DNA of 64,000 bases, from positions 682,501-746,500 of the forward strand of contig NZ_CP040094.1 of NCBI RefSeq assembly GCF_013343235.1, read 5' to 3'. This DNA is from Nostoc sp. TCL240-02. GTDB taxonomy: Bacteria; Cyanobacteriota; Cyanobacteriia; Cyanobacteriales; Nostocaceae. This document shows, piece after piece, positions 25,128 through 33,800 of this stretch (position 1 is its first letter; every line of letters begins with the position of its first letter). The position numbers and the translations under genes are program-made. A model generated the notes under the pieces. That model did no database searches. It worked only from the letters and a program-made list of their open reading frames with translations, and was not told where the DNA came from.

Positions 25128-27506
25128 CTATTTTTCAAAACAATCCATTGCTATTTGAACCTTCTCAACTTGCCTTGGTGCTTGCATTTCGTTAAAAAGT
25201 GCGTAGGCGTAGCCCGTCGCAGACATCGCTTGTAAAAAACTTTCCCTACTTTGACTAATTTCACCCATTTTTTTATGAGTTAATGCCAATTGATAATAAG
25301 CCTCAGCTAAGTCTGATTTAGCACCAATTTTATCAAGAATTCCTATCGCTTCTAAATGATGAAAAATTGCTCTTGCAAATTCTCCCTGTTCTCGGAAAAG
25401 TTCCGCAAGACAACTTATAGCTTTACCCTTAATCTGAGTAAAGTTGTTTTCTTCGGAATGAAATATAGCTTGTTGGCACAACTCAAAAGATTTTTTCAGA
25501 TTACCTAAATTTTTATAAGTTAAGCAGAGAGTTACTAAACTATGCCCTATTCCCCACAAAGTCACTCTAGTTGATGTTGAGATGCTAGAAAAGGCAACTT
25601 CAGCAAGATTAAAGGCATCTTCTCTGCTACCAGAGCGTGATTTTATCATAGCTAGACAGCATTGGGCATAAGTCATGTAATCATCAAGATTGCTATTTTG
25701 TTCAGCAAGTATACAAACAGAATTGAAACAATCTTCGGCTGCTTCTATTTCCCATAATTCAAGTTTGCAAAGCCCTGTATTAAACAAAATAGAAATTTCT
25801 GTTTGTTTAGCATCTAACGTGCCTAAGACTTTTCCTGATTTCTCATAGCATTCTATCGCTTCTCGAATGCAACCGATTATTCGATATGTATAGCCAAGTA
25901 TATTGTAAAGTCTAATTAATCTTTCTGGTGATTTTATATCGTCTATTATTCGTTGAATTACAGAAAAATTTTTCTGAAGTAGTCCCAATTGGTAAAACGA
26001 GGAACCTAAAGGTAAACCTGTACCCCATTTTTTACCTCTTCCTTGTAAGATTACATCACCAGCTTTCTCAAAATCACTAATTTCTACATAGTGATAATAA
26101 GCTTCTAAAGCAGTTAAAGCATCATTTATATTTGTAATAGATGTAACTCTCTGTGTCCAACACTCTGCGGCTTTTCGGTTTACTAATTCCCATTCTTCAC
26201 TGACTAATCTTAATCTACTAATCGCTTCATCACGAATTACAGGATGTAACCAGTATTGTCCTTTTTTTGCTTCTATTAAAGACAAATCTTGTAGAGCTTT
26301 AATTACACCTCGACGTTTTTGAGCTGGTACATCCCAAAGCAAACATAAAACTCCCTCGATAGGTAGTGAAGGAATATCTTGATAACGATAGCATCCTAAA
26401 CGACAAAGGAGACGATAAGCTTCTAAGTCATTTTCTTGGAGACGGGTAAATTGACTGGCGACTAAATCTTTTAATTCTCTTTCTATTAATAAATCTATAG
26501 AGTTTTCCTGCCAATAGGAATGGATGTCACCAGAAAAATCTGTCAGTATTGCTCCTCGAAGAATTTGCATTGCTTTGGCATTCCCTCCATAAGCTCTGCA
26601 CATTTCACTGAGAATAGTACAATCACAATTGATGTGGCAACGGCTGAAAAATTCTCGCCATGCTTCATCATCTAAACCTTCAAGTGGGTAGAGATAAACC
26701 TCTACGCTAGATTCCCGCAAACGCTCACGACTTGTGACTAAAGTAACTGAATGCACATCTGAGTCTGCTAATACTCTCAATAGCTCAACATAAGGGCGAC
26801 GATATTCTAGGAACTTACCATTTTTATCGAGAGCAGTTTCTAGATTATCGATAAATACCCCAATTTTAGAAGTTTGTTCTCGGAGTTTGCGCCGTAGTCG
26901 TTCTAGGCTGATACCAAAATCGCCTCCCGGTTCTTCGTTAAAGTATCGCCGTAGCCATTCTTCAACTACACTCTCTACAGGAGTAAGGTTTTGGATTTCT
27001 GTGGCCATCCACAGTTCTAGGACAAAATTAAATTTTTGACTTTTAAAATATTTGCGTGCTAATCTTGTTTTGCCAACACCACCTTCACCCTGGATGAGGA
27101 TAACTTTTTCTCCCCGACTGAATAAGGTGTGGAGTTCGGCTATTTGGCGATCGCGCCCGACAAAGTTAGAATCTAAATCTTGGGGTTTAGTCCCATTCGT
27201 CGCTAGATTTGGAATCTGAGAAGCTTTTTGCGACTGTTGGTTTGTTCTAAATCCTTGAACTACGCCTTGAAAGGTAGATTTTGAGACTTTTGCTCCTAGA
27301 ACTTTGGAGAGTAAATGCCAAAGTTCTGCACCAACTGCTTTTAAATGCGCTTCTGTATAACCACGGCTGTTGGCGATATGCTGGTAAGTCCGTTTTTCAT
27401 CCTCCCACAAATTACGCAAGATAATCCTTTGAGTTTTATCTAGATGTTCTCCCGTCTGGAGAAAAACCAAGTTATCTACAAACTCTAAGGCCTCTTCTAC
27501 ACCCAT
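25128..27506 (-). CDS. STAND NTPase with N-terminal HTH-like domain and C-terminal TPRs
   Basis: A 792-aa signalling ATPase. Residues 1-85 form a helical, HTH-like domain (WEDEKRTYQHIANSRGYTEA) common in cyanobacterial STAND proteins. An NB-ARC module follows: Walker A GEGGVGKT (140-147), Walker B IGVFIDNLE (215-223), sensor LVTSRERLR (about 256-264). The second half (about 470-760) is made of TPR-like helical repeats. No enzymatic effector domain is seen, so it may act through DNA or partner binding. Near the C-terminus a 29-bp dispersed repeat (25201-25229) is inserted in frame. Confidence 0.85.
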   Translation of the reverse strand: MGVEEALEFVDNLVFLQTGEHLDKTQRIILRNLWEDEKRTYQHIANSRGYTEAHLKAVGAELWHLLSKVLGAKVSKSTFQGVVQGFRTNQQSQKASQIPNLATNGTKPQDLDSNFVGRDRQIAELHTLFSRGEKVILIQGEGGVGKTRLARKYFKSQKFNFVLELWMATEIQNLTPVESVVEEWLRRYFNEEPGGDFGISLERLRRKLREQTSKIGVFIDNLETALDKNGKFLEYRRPYVELLRVLADSDVHSVTLVTSRERLRESSVEVYLYPLEGLDDEAWREFFSRCHINCDCTILSEMCRAYGGNAKAMQILRGAILTDFSGDIHSYWQENSIDLLIERELKDLVASQFTRLQENDLEAYRLLCRLGCYRYQDIPSLPIEGVLCLLWDVPAQKRRGVIKALQDLSLIEAKKGQYWLHPVIRDEAISRLRLVSEEWELVNRKAAECWTQRVTSITNINDALTALEAYYHYVEISDFEKAGDVILQGRGKKWGTGLPLGSSFYQLGLLQKNFSVIQRIIDDIKSPERLIRLYNILGYTYRIIGCIREAIECYEKSGKVLGTLDAKQTEISILFNTGLCKLELWEIEAAEDCFNSVCILAEQNSNLDDYMTYAQCCLAMIKSRSGSREDAFNLAEVAFSSISTSTRVTLWGIGHSLVTLCLTYKNLGNLKKSFELCQQAIFHSEENNFTQIKGKAISCLAELFREQGEFARAIFHHLEAIGILDKIGAKSDLAEAYYQLALTHKKMGEISQSRESFLQAMSATGYAYALFNEMQAPRQVEKVQIAMDCFEK
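25201..25229 (-). repeat. 29-bp dispersed repeat inside the STAND gene
   Basis: Read on the reverse strand it begins GCGATGTCTGCGACGGGC and ends CTACGCCTACGC, a word widely dispersed in Nostoc-type intergenic DNA. It encodes the run SATGYAYA that interrupts a TPR-like helix. A 24-of-29 match lies in the coding sequence at 41142-41170, and a partial copy is at 29701-29716. Confidence 0.8.
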
Positions 27507-30931: not shown

Positions 30932-30958
30932 AACCTAGTTTCATAGAGAAACTAGGTT
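30932..30958 (+). terminator. rho-independent terminator of mnmA
   Basis: A perfect 11-bp stem AACCTAGTTTC/GAAACTAGGTT has a 5-nt loop, lies 35 bp after the mnmA stop, and is followed by a T-containing tail (CGTGCATTTTT). Confidence 0.7.
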
Positions 30959-31071
30959 CGTGCATTTTTATGTAGTTAAAATGTTACTCTATATACTACT
31001 AAAATTTAAGTATTTACTGTGAATTATATTCATTTTAGTAAATATATAGTAAATGTTAATAACGCAAATTC

Positions 31072-31101
31072 TAGACATATACTATTTTATCTAAGTATAA
31101 T
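31072..31101 (+). promoter_or_regulatory. candidate promoter of the DUF262-HEPN gene
   Basis: TAGACA (31072-31077), 18 bp, then a perfect TATAAT (31096-31101) in very AT-rich DNA. It would give a leader of about 95 nt before ATG 31204. The rest of 30960-31203 is AT-rich with no gene. Confidence 0.4.
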
Positions 31102-31203
31102 GTCAATTTAAACATAGCATGGTTGTCAATTACATATTTTATCAATGTAGATAGATAGCCAAGGCTGGCGCATTTACGTTAGTAGAAGGTTTAAGTTGGC
31201 TGT

Positions 31204-33285
31204 ATGGGAACAACTCAAAGTATTCAATTTCTACTCAATGATATAGAAAGAAATCAATATTTTCTTCCTGAATTTCAAAGAGGATTTCGCTGGACACCAG
31301 AACAGGTAAAAAAATATTTTCGTTCCTTGTATTTTGGCTATCCTACTGGATCTTTCTTAGTGTGGAAATGTGACAATCCTCCCAAAATTAAAAGCAGTGT
31401 AACAACGACAGACAGCAAAAGTTTTACTAGATTAATTCTTGACGGTCAGCAGAGGCTAACAACACTATACACGCTTATTAAGGGAACACCTCCTTCTTGG
31501 ATTGAAGGTAAACCTCCTAGAACAGATTTGTATTTCAATCTTGAAACTCATGAGTTTCAGTATTATACTCAGAGTCTAATGATAGGGAAAAAAGAATGGA
31601 TTAATATTTGTGATTTTTTCAGAAAAGAGCTAGGAGATTATGTACAGAATAGTGACGATAGTGTATATTTAATGTCTAATTTTAAAGAGCTATCTCGTTT
31701 ACAAGCTATTCTTAAGTACGAATATTACATACAAGAAATTGATGAGCAAAATTCTCTAAATGTTGTTGAAGTTTTTAATCTTGTTAATAGTGCGGGAACT
31801 CCTCTAATTCAATCAGATTTGATTTTGGCACTGATAACCGGAAGATGGGAAGAATGCAAAGATAAAATGCGAACTGCTATTAAAAAGTTTAGTAGTTCAG
31901 GTTTTGTATTTGATATGGATTTTTTTACTAGATGTATTGCTGTTGTAGGTACAGATAAGGGTGTATTTGATGACGTAAAAAATTTAGATAAAGATGCTTT
32001 GATTGAAGCTTGGAACAAAGTTGAAAAATCATTGAACTATTTATTAAAAGTATTGCCTAAACATGGATATATTGATGAAAATTCCTTTCTCAGCACCTCC
32101 TATGTTTTTTATACTTTAGTCTACTATATTGCAAAGAATAACTTTAAATTTCCTGATTCGATAACAAGAAACAAATTATTATACTGGCTTTATAATGCTC
32201 TAATGTGGGGCAGATACAGTCGAAGCTCAGACACTACACTTGACAAAGATATTCGTATTTTGAAAGAAGCAAATTCTGTTGATGAATTAATTAAGACTTT
32301 AGCTGCATCCAGAGGAGGGAATCTTGAAGTTACAGAGCATGACCTTGAATTACAAGGTGTAAGAAGTAGGTTTTATCAAATTGTATATATTCTTATTCAA
32401 AGTAATGATGCCGCAGATTGGATAGACACTTCACTACCTTTGTATAATAAGATATCTGGACGTAATTATTCAGTAAAAAGATACCACATATTTCTTCCGA
32501 GGAAATTATATAAATTGTATAATTCTAGTTCATCTTATGATAAAAGCCTTGTTAATGAACTAGCTAATCTTGCTTTCTCAGCATCAGATACTAATTCAGA
32601 TACTAATCATGAAATATTCAACAATGATCCAGAAGTGTATCTAAATAATATAGAGATAGAGCAACTACGGCGGCAGTATGTGCCAACAGATAGTAGTTTA
32701 TGGAAAATGAATCGCTACAGCTATGAAGCTTTTCTTAAAGAGCGGCGCAGATTGTTAGCACAAGGTATCAATCAATTTCTGAATAAGCTTTATCATGGAG
32801 AAGGCAAGATTTATGTTTCACGTGATATTACACAATGGCGGCAAAAACTTGAGGAAGTAGAGAAAGCACTCCGTAATATTATTATTGATGTATTACATGA
32901 AAATGAAGATGATATTGATCGAAATTCATATATTCCATCTCACTTTTTAGCAAAACTAGAAGAACGGATTAAGAAATATTTCAAGGATAACCCTTCTGAA
33001 GACAGGGTATTATTTCAAAATGTTGAGAGGAAAATTGATTTTTTTGATGTTTCAGAATACTGCCAGTTAATAATTAGTGGGCAAAACTGGCAATATTTTG
33101 AATCTATATTTGGTGATAAATCTGCATTACAAAATCGCTTTAGTCAGCTTCAAAATCTAAGAAATACTTTAGCTCACAATCGGGATTTAACTGATGTTGT
33201 TATTAAAGATGGAGAAGCCGCCATACTCTGGTTCTCTTCTGCACTGAGAAAATACTTTTACGAAGAAGACTCTACATCAAAATAG
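31204..33285 (+). CDS. DUF262 domain protein with C-terminal HEPN-like RNase domain
   Basis: A 693-aa soluble protein. The N-terminus carries DUF262 motifs: PEFQRGFRW (22-30), YPTGSFLVW (46-54) and the NTPase-associated LILDGQQRLTTLY (77-89). DUF262 is the nucleotide-dependent half of GmrSD-like modification-dependent restriction enzymes. In place of the usual HNH DUF1524 half, the C-terminus (about 540-690) is helical and ends in a Swt1-type HEPN signature, LRNTLAHNR, with R653 and H658 as the R-x4-H RNase pair. The gene is AT-rich, stands alone and is next to toxin-antitoxin debris. A phage-defence role is inferred from these families. Confidence 0.82.
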   Translation: MGTTQSIQFLLNDIERNQYFLPEFQRGFRWTPEQVKKYFRSLYFGYPTGSFLVWKCDNPPKIKSSVTTTDSKSFTRLILDGQQRLTTLYTLIKGTPPSWIEGKPPRTDLYFNLETHEFQYYTQSLMIGKKEWINICDFFRKELGDYVQNSDDSVYLMSNFKELSRLQAILKYEYYIQEIDEQNSLNVVEVFNLVNSAGTPLIQSDLILALITGRWEECKDKMRTAIKKFSSSGFVFDMDFFTRCIAVVGTDKGVFDDVKNLDKDALIEAWNKVEKSLNYLLKVLPKHGYIDENSFLSTSYVFYTLVYYIAKNNFKFPDSITRNKLLYWLYNALMWGRYSRSSDTTLDKDIRILKEANSVDELIKTLAASRGGNLEVTEHDLELQGVRSRFYQIVYILIQSNDAADWIDTSLPLYNKISGRNYSVKRYHIFLPRKLYKLYNSSSSYDKSLVNELANLAFSASDTNSDTNHEIFNNDPEVYLNNIEIEQLRRQYVPTDSSLWKMNRYSYEAFLKERRRLLAQGINQFLNKLYHGEGKIYVSRDITQWRQKLEEVEKALRNIIIDVLHENEDDIDRNSYIPSHFLAKLEERIKKYFKDNPSEDRVLFQNVERKIDFFDVSEYCQLIISGQNWQYFESIFGDKSALQNRFSQLQNLRNTLAHNRDLTDVVIKDGEAAILWFSSALRKYFYEEDSTSK

Positions 33286-33354: not shown

Positions 33355-33408
33355 CTAAAGCCTGTACGATTCCCGGATGATTTGCGGTCGTTTGCTTACA
33401 TCGCTCAT
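33355..33408 (-). pseudogene. ParE-type toxin remnant fused to a Uma2 tail remnant
   Basis: Directly after the antitoxin, an ATG overlapping its stop (TAATG) opens 17 codons, MSDVSKRPQIIRESYRL, then TAG. The first 12 residues look like the start of a ParE-type toxin; the overlap is the normal antitoxin-toxin junction. In another frame the last part reads GIVQALEEF and stop, close to GTVQALKEF near the C-terminus of the intact Uma2 protein at 33801-34454. So a deletion seems to have joined the toxin start to a Uma2 end. Confidence 0.6.
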
Positions 33409-33677
33409 TAACCTTGGTTTGACCCTTTATGCTTGGCGATTCTTTCCCGTACAGCTTGGCGAATATCTTCCCAATCGTTAGGAGTCATCTCGGTTGCATT
33501 TCCAGAATTTAGACCTTCTAAAAGCATCGCTTCCAAACGTTCAGCAGCTTGACGCTTTTGGTCTTGGCGTACTAACTCGCGGAAATATTCACTGACACTA
33601 CTATAGCCACTAGTCGCCACTTTCTCTTCTATATAAGTCCGCATCGCGTCAGGGAGAGATATATTTATACTTTTCAC
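33408..33677 (-). CDS. ParD/CC2985-family antitoxin, apparently without its toxin
   Basis: About 89 aa. It begins VKSINISLPDAMRTYIEEKV, a ribbon-helix-helix DNA-binding N-terminus typical of ParD, followed by SGYSSVSEYFRELVRQDQKR (dimerising helix) and an acidic toxin-binding tail. GTG at 33677 is better spaced from GGGAAGT than the GTG two codons up. ParD antitoxins neutralise ParE and repress their own operon. Here the expected parE is reduced to a remnant, so the antitoxin is orphaned. Confidence 0.85.
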   Translation of the reverse strand: MKSINISLPDAMRTYIEEKVATSGYSSVSEYFRELVRQDQKRQAAERLEAMLLEGLNSGNATEMTPNDWEDIRQAVRERIAKHKGSNQG

Positions 33678-33800
33678 TGGCACTACTTCCCTAATTTTTG
33701 CTTCATAATATTATTTTATGGCAATTTATGCCATTTATTGCCATATAGGAGCAATTAGCAAAAGCTATACCTGCGGTAAGCTACATCTACGCACTCTCTA

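Follow-up and report, generated by a model that had tools for sequence, protein, structure and literature searches.

Enzymes of the GmrSD family have been studied as DNA cutters, and a gene in Nostoc raises the question of whether such an enzyme may attack RNA as well, or instead. It lies at positions 31204-33285 (+ strand) of the 64-kb window, by which we mean the whole stretch of DNA analyzed here. A first-pass annotation had read its product as a DUF262-HEPN fusion without a DUF1524/HNH part, in which a DNA-cutting effector had been swapped for an RNA-cutting one. From its sequence, the gene is predicted to encode a GmrSD/BrxU-type (Type IV restriction-like) enzyme with an added HEPN RNase domain. 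We give a probability of about 0.55 to the reading that the Nostoc copy is a DUF262-gated anti-phage RNase, with the HNH degenerate and HEPN as the main working output. If this is true, sensing of modified DNA could trigger RNA destruction through a sensor joined to a predicted RNase tail, and the Nostoc copy may have moved from DNA cutting to RNA cutting.

Three modules in one protein

The open reading frame is single and intact and, as first described, encodes one protein of 693 aa; its translation matches GmrSD_N and HEPN_Swt1, and PADLOC HEC-05 over residues 4-527 (E 4.8e-44). The DUF262 head reported at the N-terminus is recovered by Pfam, with PF03235 (DUF262/GmrSD_N, a ParB/Srx-like NTPase and sensor domain) covering residues 10-211 (31231-31836, +) at E 8.3e-28 and 98.3 bits (cut-off 33.2). 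Its QR (Q25-R26; 31276-31281, +), DGQQR (residues 80-84; 31441-31455, +) and FxxxN (F191 and N195; 31774-31788, +) motifs are each kept in 113/113 aligned rows among the matches listed. Whole-protein searches supplied the best 120 of 1,063 matches for the window protein's set and the best 120 of 2,810 for clade B, and the main alignment holds 113 of 121 sequences, restricted to homologues of 660-710 aa. Profile A1 matches PDB entry 7p9k at E 5e-27 over profile positions 6-386, that is, head and linker. The entry, with a chain of 587 aa, is named 'DUF262 domain-containing protein', and we take it to be BrxU.

The middle of the protein does not bear out the view that a DUF1524/HNH part is missing. 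Residues ~372-533 (32317-32802, +) align with the GmrSD_C/DUF1524 HNH domain, which is intact in most relatives and degenerate in the window copy. Pfam gives no GmrSD_C match in the window protein itself, and the domain was placed by alignment to relatives; a GmrSD_C scan of the HNH region in seven of them put three over the cut-off (P0031, P0038 and P0116) and one below it, with no match in the other three. At E up to 1, GmrSD_C matched somewhere in 18/42 members of A1. HEPN as a replacement of DUF1524 was rejected, since the HNH region is present in relatives and alignable in the window copy.

The C-terminal HEPN domain spans about residues 540-693 (32821-33282, +). HEPN_Swt1 (PF18731) matches residues 577-664 at E 5e-5 and 24.0 bits, below the Pfam cut-off of 27.5, and PADLOC PDC-M34B matches residues 550-664 at E 4.6e-10. 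The assignment also draws on family-wide motifs. E553-x3-R557 (32860-32874, +) is present in 107/107 rows among the matches listed, and an E-x3-[KR] motif has been described for HEPN (PMC3710099). R653-N-x3-H658 (33160-33177, +) contains the R653-x4-H658 signature first noticed, whose conservation in homologues had been proposed as a check. The signature exceeds what chance would give: among the matches listed, R stands in 106/107 aligned HEPN-type rows, query included, and so does H, and the sole exception, P0108, has a frayed C-terminus. In clade B (best 120 of 2,810, rows 72-100% identical to their query), RNxxxH and DHH are each found in 120/120, and the full set of three motifs likewise stands in all 120 listed rows. 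The R, N, H and E-x3-R residues have been linked to HEPN catalysis (PMC3710099). Judged by its motifs, a HEPN tail with active-site residues is present.

Profile matches across the family are more uneven. PF18731 matches 17/42 A1 members at E up to 1, a level at which the unrelated HAD_2 (6) and YodL (5) also match; clade B members P0123, P0149 and P0180 match no Pfam HEPN family at E up to 0.01-0.1, and P0149 matches PDC-M34B at E 7.1e-8. All 20 proteins found with a HEPN tail have an HNH region in front, in a search that covered lengths of 0.55-1.75 times 693 aa, a range above that of short HEPN proteins standing by themselves.

HNH damage and HEPN conservation

Most relatives read HHIFPK where the window protein has the damaged motif YHIFLP (residues 427-432; 32482-32499, +), and among the matches listed H stands at column 427 in 103/107 HEPN-type rows and at column 428 likewise in 103/107. 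An intact (D/H)H-x-x-P nuclease motif is absent from the window protein, which carries Y427, L431 (P in 106/107), A460 (T in 104/107, both among the matches listed) and a four-residue insertion; H428, N455 and N468 are retained. The insertion stems from a 12-bp stretch of the HNH loop that is exactly duplicated in tandem (TCAGATACTAAT x2; 32584-32607, +), scored by Tandem Repeats Finder as 2.0 copies at 100% match. Its four extra residues face a gap in 105/107 rows of the matches listed, only P0001 and P0002 having them, and they also occur in the same-genus G1524 copy. Y427 is the motif-level, not structural, counterpart of BrxU D474; the correspondence was drawn by motif, not by alignment or structure, because the HNH-region profile matched no nuclease in the PDB. 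In BrxU, D474A and H475A each abolish DNA cleavage and phage resistance and leave NTP hydrolysis in place (PMC8565348).

Among the matches listed, the HNH dyad is altered in 7/106 scored HEPN-type rows, by about five changes on the tree, and the HEPN R/H pair is lost in 0/106. The tree (FastTree, 112 rows including the AlbA type) carries long-branch warnings, P0022 and P0018 among them; P0108, with its frayed C-terminus, was left out of the tree and the loss counts, and the six AlbA-type rows out of the HEPN counts. Between the window protein and P0002 the differences are 0/211 in DUF262, 5/160 in the linker, 15/162 in HNH and 10/158 in HEPN. The HNH share, one-half, tops the 56 close pairs, in which the second-highest share is 0.37 and the median 0.21; these pairs are not independent of one another. 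When P0001 is set against P0002, the HNH and HEPN regions do not differ significantly (p 0.41), and in the other 55 pairs pooled it is HEPN, not HNH, that changes fastest.

Compared with its DUF262 and linker parts, the HNH motif of the window copy is changing more quickly; in the comparison with the G1524 copy, omega is 0.02 for residues 1-211, 0.07 for 212-380, 0.36 for 381-484 and 0.27 for 420-484. The gene is full length in 1/53 same-genus genomes, the window's own only; the G1524 copy has nonsense codons and the G400 copy is a 5' remnant of only about 40 residues. Changes in G1524 may postdate that copy's inactivation.

Because the HNH motif has decayed and the HEPN motif has not, an effector shift from DNase to RNase may hold in the Nostoc lineage, through decay and not through a swap. 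The original proposal survives to that extent; its idea of an exchange does not, HEPN being appended to a GmrSD with HNH in front.

Genomic setting and distribution

The gene is AT-rich, as noted at first pass, with a GC of 0.323 versus 0.411 for the 64-kb window; 0.7% of windows the size of the gene are as low. It was also rightly described as standing alone beside toxin-antitoxin debris: the window copy is solo, with no R-M operon, next to a ParD-family antitoxin gene lacking ParE (33408-33683, -; TIGR02606, E 2e-15), which we treat as context, not partner. ParD as the antitoxin of the GmrSD-HEPN gene was rejected, given that ParE adjoins ParD in relatives. A 98-aa ORF adjoins ParD in same-genus L095, L102 and L104 and an 86-aa ORF in L106; Pfam identifies the 98-aa ORF as ParE in L104, the only one of those three scanned. 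Two co-directional small ORFs are found near the gene, one of 30 aa at 31019-31111 and one of 34 aa at 33377-33481; the frame of the former is broken in both compared relatives (L101 and L209), and the latter is mostly antisense over parD. A promoter-like TAGACA-18-TATAAT (31072-31101, +; 11/12) about 100 bp before the ATG comes from a consensus scan only, with 17 such sites versus 11.9 expected in the region, and a terminator-like hairpin after mnmA (30932-30958, +) is weak (1 found versus 0.9 expected).

Proximity of homologues to defense genes had been suggested as a check on a defense role. In Algoriphagus, whose homologue (L003) has both nuclease motifs, and in an acidobacterial genome (two phyla), the gene has an HsdM gene on either side within a Type I R-M operon, and in Mariniflexile the slot between two HsdM genes holds a version with a Schlafen AlbA_2 tail. 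Together with the DUF262 sensor and HEPN motifs, these two relatives inside Type I R-M operons keep the candidate defense role in place. A survey with A1 at E 1e-30 found 12/395 genomes in the Algoriphagus phylum, the HEPN part being matched only in Algoriphagus itself; at E 1e-150 it found 1/341 genomes in the order of Algoriphagus, the Algoriphagus genome itself, and 0/397 in the family of L030, a search with no positive control.

The HEPN form was not found in phages: 7/50,697 phage records match P0001, none covering 80%. In viral_contigs (80 loci retained out of 90 relatives), no match extends beyond residue 570, and a second scan with P0149 gave no match. Among plasmids, 431 records match P0001, two of which cover 80% (one is H11; H17 is a partial match), and 68 match P0149, four of which cover 80%.

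Proposed mechanism, alternatives and known systems

By analogy with BrxU, SspE and TgvAB, DUF262 would bind and hydrolyze NTP and sense foreign or modified DNA. What we infer for this protein is a sensing role, cleavage of RNA but no longer of DNA, and a part in phage defense. In the family at large, the sensor signal would allow a pair of nucleases within the same chain to act, the HNH (DUF1524) on DNA and HEPN on RNA. In the Nostoc lineage, because the HNH is degenerate, the working output would most likely be HEPN cutting the RNA of the cell or of the phage, which could lead to growth arrest or abortive infection.

Weighing against this reading are the HEPN_Swt1 match below the cut-off, the solo position of the window copy, the HEPN changes relative to P0002, the faster HEPN change in the other 55 pairs pooled and the broken same-genus copies. 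Some DNase activity is possible because H428, N455 and N468 are kept, and both nucleases might then work as in an ordinary two-nuclease GmrSD-HEPN, with Y427 tolerated, the HNH cutting or nicking DNA and HEPN as a back-up suicide effector. The dyad histidines of the listed matches (103/107 in each column) and the invariant DHH and RNxxxH of the listed clade B rows agree with this, and a last-resort HEPN effector has been proposed for HEPN-DUF499 proteins (PMC12839542). However, Y427, L431, A460 and the insertion fall in highly conserved columns, the HNH region holds half of the differences from P0002, and BrxU is inactive as D474A, the motif-equivalent position (PMC8565348); we consider two working nucleases unlikely here.

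The broken copies, and a full-length gene in one genome of 53, would also fit a defense gene in decay, its frame open and its function being lost, perhaps with R-M partners left behind. A head constrained until recently (no DUF262 differences from P0002, omega 0.02 against G1524) and intact HEPN motif residues make this less probable still. That the tail is not an RNase and instead regulates the GmrSD part as an RNA- or DNA-binding or dimerizing module seems very unlikely: predicted-inactive HEPN domains exist, eukaryotic Swt1 HEPN being listed as one, but the residues tied to catalysis are strictly conserved here, and HEPN fused to ParB and HNH is entered as 'active', itself a prediction (all PMC3710099). 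The DUF262-gated RNase remains our preferred reading, and natural HNH changes with HEPN kept make it easy to compare the two nucleases in importance.

More tentatively, and with greater doubt than confidence, GmrSD could be a sensor chassis that takes exchangeable RNA-attacking tails (HEPN or Schlafen AlbA_2), fitted to a shared DUF262-HNH body and placed in one HsdM-HsdM slot of a Type I R-M operon. DNA restriction could then escalate to RNA attack, and in the Nostoc lineage, with the DNA nuclease lost and the gene alone, a DNA-sensing, RNA-cutting abortive-infection protein would be left.

The basic GmrSD and HEPN architecture is already in print. Table 1 of PMC3710099 tabulated in 2013 a Swt1-like HEPN with ParB(DUF262) and HNH(DUF2081), exemplar VNG7073, which has the same three modules as the window protein, in one table cell. 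A Halobacterium plasmid homologue has HHIFP, which the window protein has not kept, followed by RNALAH, and matches HEPN_Swt1 at E 9e-4, below the cut-off; the archaeal match is 23.6% identical and annotated as separate CDSs, and P0245 may be VNG7073. BrxU, with which HEC-05 is equated in PMC11411939, shares the head and linker (7p9k) and HEC-05 over residues 4-527 with the window protein. In BrxU, DUF262 is joined to a DUF1524 whose DHIYP is intact (PMC8565348), whereas the window protein carries YHIFLP and extends into a tail of ~150 aa. The TgvAB system, from Vibrio cholerae, belongs to the GmrSD family and lies inside a Type I R-M operon, as do L003 and L232, but it consists of two proteins, the word HEPN is absent from the main text of PMC11411939, and the window gene is solo. 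In PtuXYZ a DUF262 protein and an RNase share an operon; as described in PMC11980606, it has separate genes, a BECR-fold RNase and no DUF1524. PD-T4-2, which protects E. coli from T4 (PMC9519451), is listed with both DUF262 and HEPN (PF18735) domains and, in that listing, without DUF1524 (PMC10952713); compared by listed domains alone, it pairs DUF262 with HEPN as the window protein does.

Domains of the window protein and its relatives

The gene at 31204-33285 (+ strand) is a single open frame of 693 codons in a genome consisting of a single contig of 7.89 Mb, and at a GC content of 0.323 versus 0.411 for the window it is AT-rich, as the first-pass annotation had stated. The DUF262 head proposed there is borne out by a Pfam match to GmrSD_N at residues 10-211 (E 8.3e-28). 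HEPN_Swt1 is matched at residues 577-664 (E 5e-5), with 24.0 bits falling below the curated cut-off of 27.5. PADLOC assigns residues 4-527 to HEC-05 (E 4.8e-44) and residues 550-664 to PDC-M34B (E 4.6e-10), and the sole NCBIfam match is at chance level.

From a homologue search with the window protein, for which the best 120 of 1,063 proteins were listed, the main alignment retains 113 of 121 sequences (query included), those of 660-710 aa, of which 107 are HEPN-type and 6 end in a Schlafen AlbA_2 tail. In the stretch that links DUF262 to HEPN, most aligned relatives carry the His-Me finger signature HHIFPK...N...N. When the HNH region was scanned with Pfam in seven relatives, the GmrSD_C (DUF1524) cut-off was passed by P0031, P0038 and the AlbA-type P0116, P0003 gave a match below cut-off, and GmrSD_C was absent from the results for P0009, P0022 and P0118; 18 of the 42 members of the family profile A1 match it at E <= 1. 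Pfam does not detect GmrSD_C in the window protein. The family thus contradicts the claim that the fusion has 'no DUF1524/HNH part', although for the window copy the claim is understandable.

In the HEPN-type alignment, R653 is kept in 106 of 107 rows and so is H658, in agreement with the expected conservation of R653-x4-H658 in homologues; the remaining row, P0108, ends in a stretch that looks unrelated. N654, E553 and R557 are each kept in all 107 rows. PMC3710099 names two HEPN motifs, R-x4-6-H and, upstream of it, E-x3-[KR]. At the loose limit of E <= 1, A1 members match HEPN_Swt1 (17/42), HEPN_SAV2148 (9, best E 1e-4), Abi_2 (3) and HEPN_RiboL-PSP (2), and likewise the unrelated HAD_2 (6, best E 0.03) and YodL (5).

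A damaged HNH motif in the window copy

Where HHIFPK stands in most relatives, the window protein has YHIFLP, and its residue at column 460 is A, against T in 104 of 107 rows. An exact 12-bp tandem duplication in the gene adds four residues to the HNH loop, at a gap in 105/107 rows. Y427 is common to the window protein, its close relative P0002 (96% identical) and the same-genus G1524 copy; the latter two carry the duplication in a diverged form and, unlike the window protein, have P431 and T460. H428, N455 and N468 are retained in the window protein. In the DHIYP motif of BrxU, a GmrSD-family enzyme, D474A and H475A each abolish DNA cleavage and phage resistance with NTP hydrolysis kept (PMC8565348). 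Matched by motif, Y427 would occupy the position of D474; the correspondence is putative, as a profile of the HNH region did not find the BrxU HNH in the PDB. DNA cutting may be lost or weak in the window lineage.

In the comparison with the G1524 copy, residues 1-211 show an omega of 0.02 (1 nonsynonymous and 10 synonymous changes), rising to 0.07 over 212-380 and 0.36 over 381-484 (15 nonsynonymous, 10 synonymous; 0.27 within 420-484). Some of these changes may be post-mortem, because the G1524 copy contains stop codons and runs into the end of its contig. P0002, an open frame, differs from the window protein at 0/211 positions in DUF262, 5/160 in the linker, 15/162 in HNH and 10/158 in HEPN (HNH versus rest, p 0.0013; HNH versus HEPN, p 0.41). 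The HNH region holds half of these differences, a larger share than in any other of the 56 close pairs (second highest 0.37, median 0.21). When the remaining 55 pairs are pooled, the fastest-changing region is HEPN (0.0995), with HNH (0.0554) close to the linker (0.0547). On a FastTree phylogeny of residues 1-420 (112 rows: 106 HEPN-type and 6 AlbA-type), the HH dyad is altered in 7 rows, needing 5 changes; a group table ignoring unlabelled rows gives one change for the label, and the count over the rows is the one adopted here. HEPN R or H is lost in 0 of the 106 scored HEPN-type rows. These numbers are all small and may include metagenome errors.

Spread of the architecture and losses within the genus

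A search with residues 530-693 of the window protein found 20 proteins, 15 of them with DUF262 (precomputed Pfam) and the remaining five (391-566 aa) all reading HH-x-x-P ahead of HEPN; an HNH region is visible in all the others too. None of the 20 has a window-type HEPN apart from a GmrSD_C-like region, in a search that covered proteins of about 380-1,210 aa and was thereby blind to small standalone HEPN proteins. Through two of the 20 (P0123, P0124) a second clade, B, was reached, of about 742 aa, in which the best 120 of 2,810 proteins listed are 72-100% identical to the query and DHH-x-x-P, RN-x3-H and DGQQR each occur in 120/120, counts inflated by close kinship of the rows. GmrSD_C is unmatched in the clade B proteins P0123, P0149 and P0180, hence the HNH assignment there rests on motif and alignment. 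The GmrSD-HEPN architecture is a common one that usually retains its three sites together.

At E 1e-40, matches occur in 2 of 386 phylum genomes, the window's own and one with a fragment. Within the genus, the full gene is found in 1/53, again the window's own; 33/53 match at E 1e-8, nearly all via other DUF262 genes. The copy in G1524 is broken and lies at the end of a contig. G400 keeps only a 5' remnant of about 40 residues (L101, 9067-9189), followed directly by a Uma2 region. This remnant is a deletion scar and does not represent an empty ancestral site. Elsewhere in the window's genome, a second DUF262 gene (G000:C1:3702826-3704711) seems broken, with one stop codon within the match and a further partial match downstream. 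Same-genus stretches L210-L213, L215 and L217 encode a GmrSD of 771-772 aa with a different C-terminal part of about 240 aa.

The sat region was compared in 18 other same-genus genomes, 10 of which have both mnmA and sat on the stretch. Content between the two genes is variable (ten stretches listed, proteins scanned from six), including an HNH_2 nuclease (L104), a hemopexin-repeat protein (L102) and an AAA/TPR pair (L096), with a PD-(D/E)XK protein in the sat region of L098, where mnmA was not found; no protein was recognised in the slot of L095 (one of two scans) or L103. The differing contents of the scanned stretches indicate a slot that is variable and only in part of defence type. In the window, a ParD antitoxin (33408-33683) stands without ParE, which adjoins ParD in same-genus relatives, and an AAA/STAND-like NTPase with TPR repeats (25128-27506, - strand) is a possible signalling or defence protein.

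Restriction operons, alternative tails and known systems

Neighbourhoods were compared for seven HEPN-type relatives besides the window, with ORFs scanned in part and without a random background. Type I embedding occurs in 2/7. In Algoriphagus (L003:8517-14704), HsdM, the GmrSD-HEPN gene, HsdM and HsdS have overlapping frames, and an integrase lies upstream of the gene at a distance of about 4.7 kb; in clade B (L232:6414-15741, found by searching the phylum of a Vicinamibacteraceae genome, Acidobacteriota) the same order is joined by HsdR and an integrase. Identity between the paired HsdM is 50% in L003 and 48% in L232. A restriction or Abi gene lies within 7 kb in 5/7: besides these two, L234, where the gene is split across two frames, has an M.Eco57I-like gene one ORF away, L231 has HNH_2 and DUF7669 genes at 2-4 kb, and about 5 kb separate AbiEi/AbiEii from the gene in L218, which is a Halobacterium plasmid. 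A sixth, L233, is doubtful (AAA_21 at about 7 kb, beta-lactamase-fold and acetyltransferase genes also near), and L219 has a helicase nearby and no restriction gene among the listed neighbours.

In P0116-P0121 a Schlafen AlbA_2 tail replaces HEPN on the same-family GmrSD body (Pfam in P0116 and P0118), and by similarity the AlbA_2-tail loci are L004, L005, L007, L009, L020, L028 and L030. The HsdM / GmrSD-X / HsdM / HsdS slot, with X = HEPN from two clades in L003 and L232, holds the AlbA_2 version in Mariniflexile (L030:8515-14734). HsdM is on the stretch in 2/7 AlbA-tail loci (L028, L030), and a search with Hsd queries found paired HsdM flanking the gene in 3/41 loci (L003, L030, L232), some of the others being short contigs.

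A full-text literature search, covering few subscription papers, brought up no experimental work on GmrSD-HEPN proteins, no case of a degenerate HNH beside an intact HEPN, and no HEPN/AlbA_2 tail exchange in one operon slot. Our observations are of the modules, motifs, conservation and genomic context of GmrSD-HEPN. GmrSD near Type I genes is already known (PMC4619093; PMC11411939), and the three-part architecture was already published in 2013, when Table 1 of PMC3710099 listed a Swt1-like HEPN fused to 'ParB (DUF262) with HNH(DUF2081) (VNG7073), active'. In BrxU and SspE, DUF262 hydrolyses NTP and gates DUF1524 (PMC8565348, PMC10952713); by analogy, DUF262 may gate HEPN in the same way, and the gated HEPN would cut RNA. 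Schlafen domains are RNases (PMC12839542), and PD-T4-2 is an anti-phage precedent that combines DUF262 with HEPN (PMC10952713, PMC9519451).
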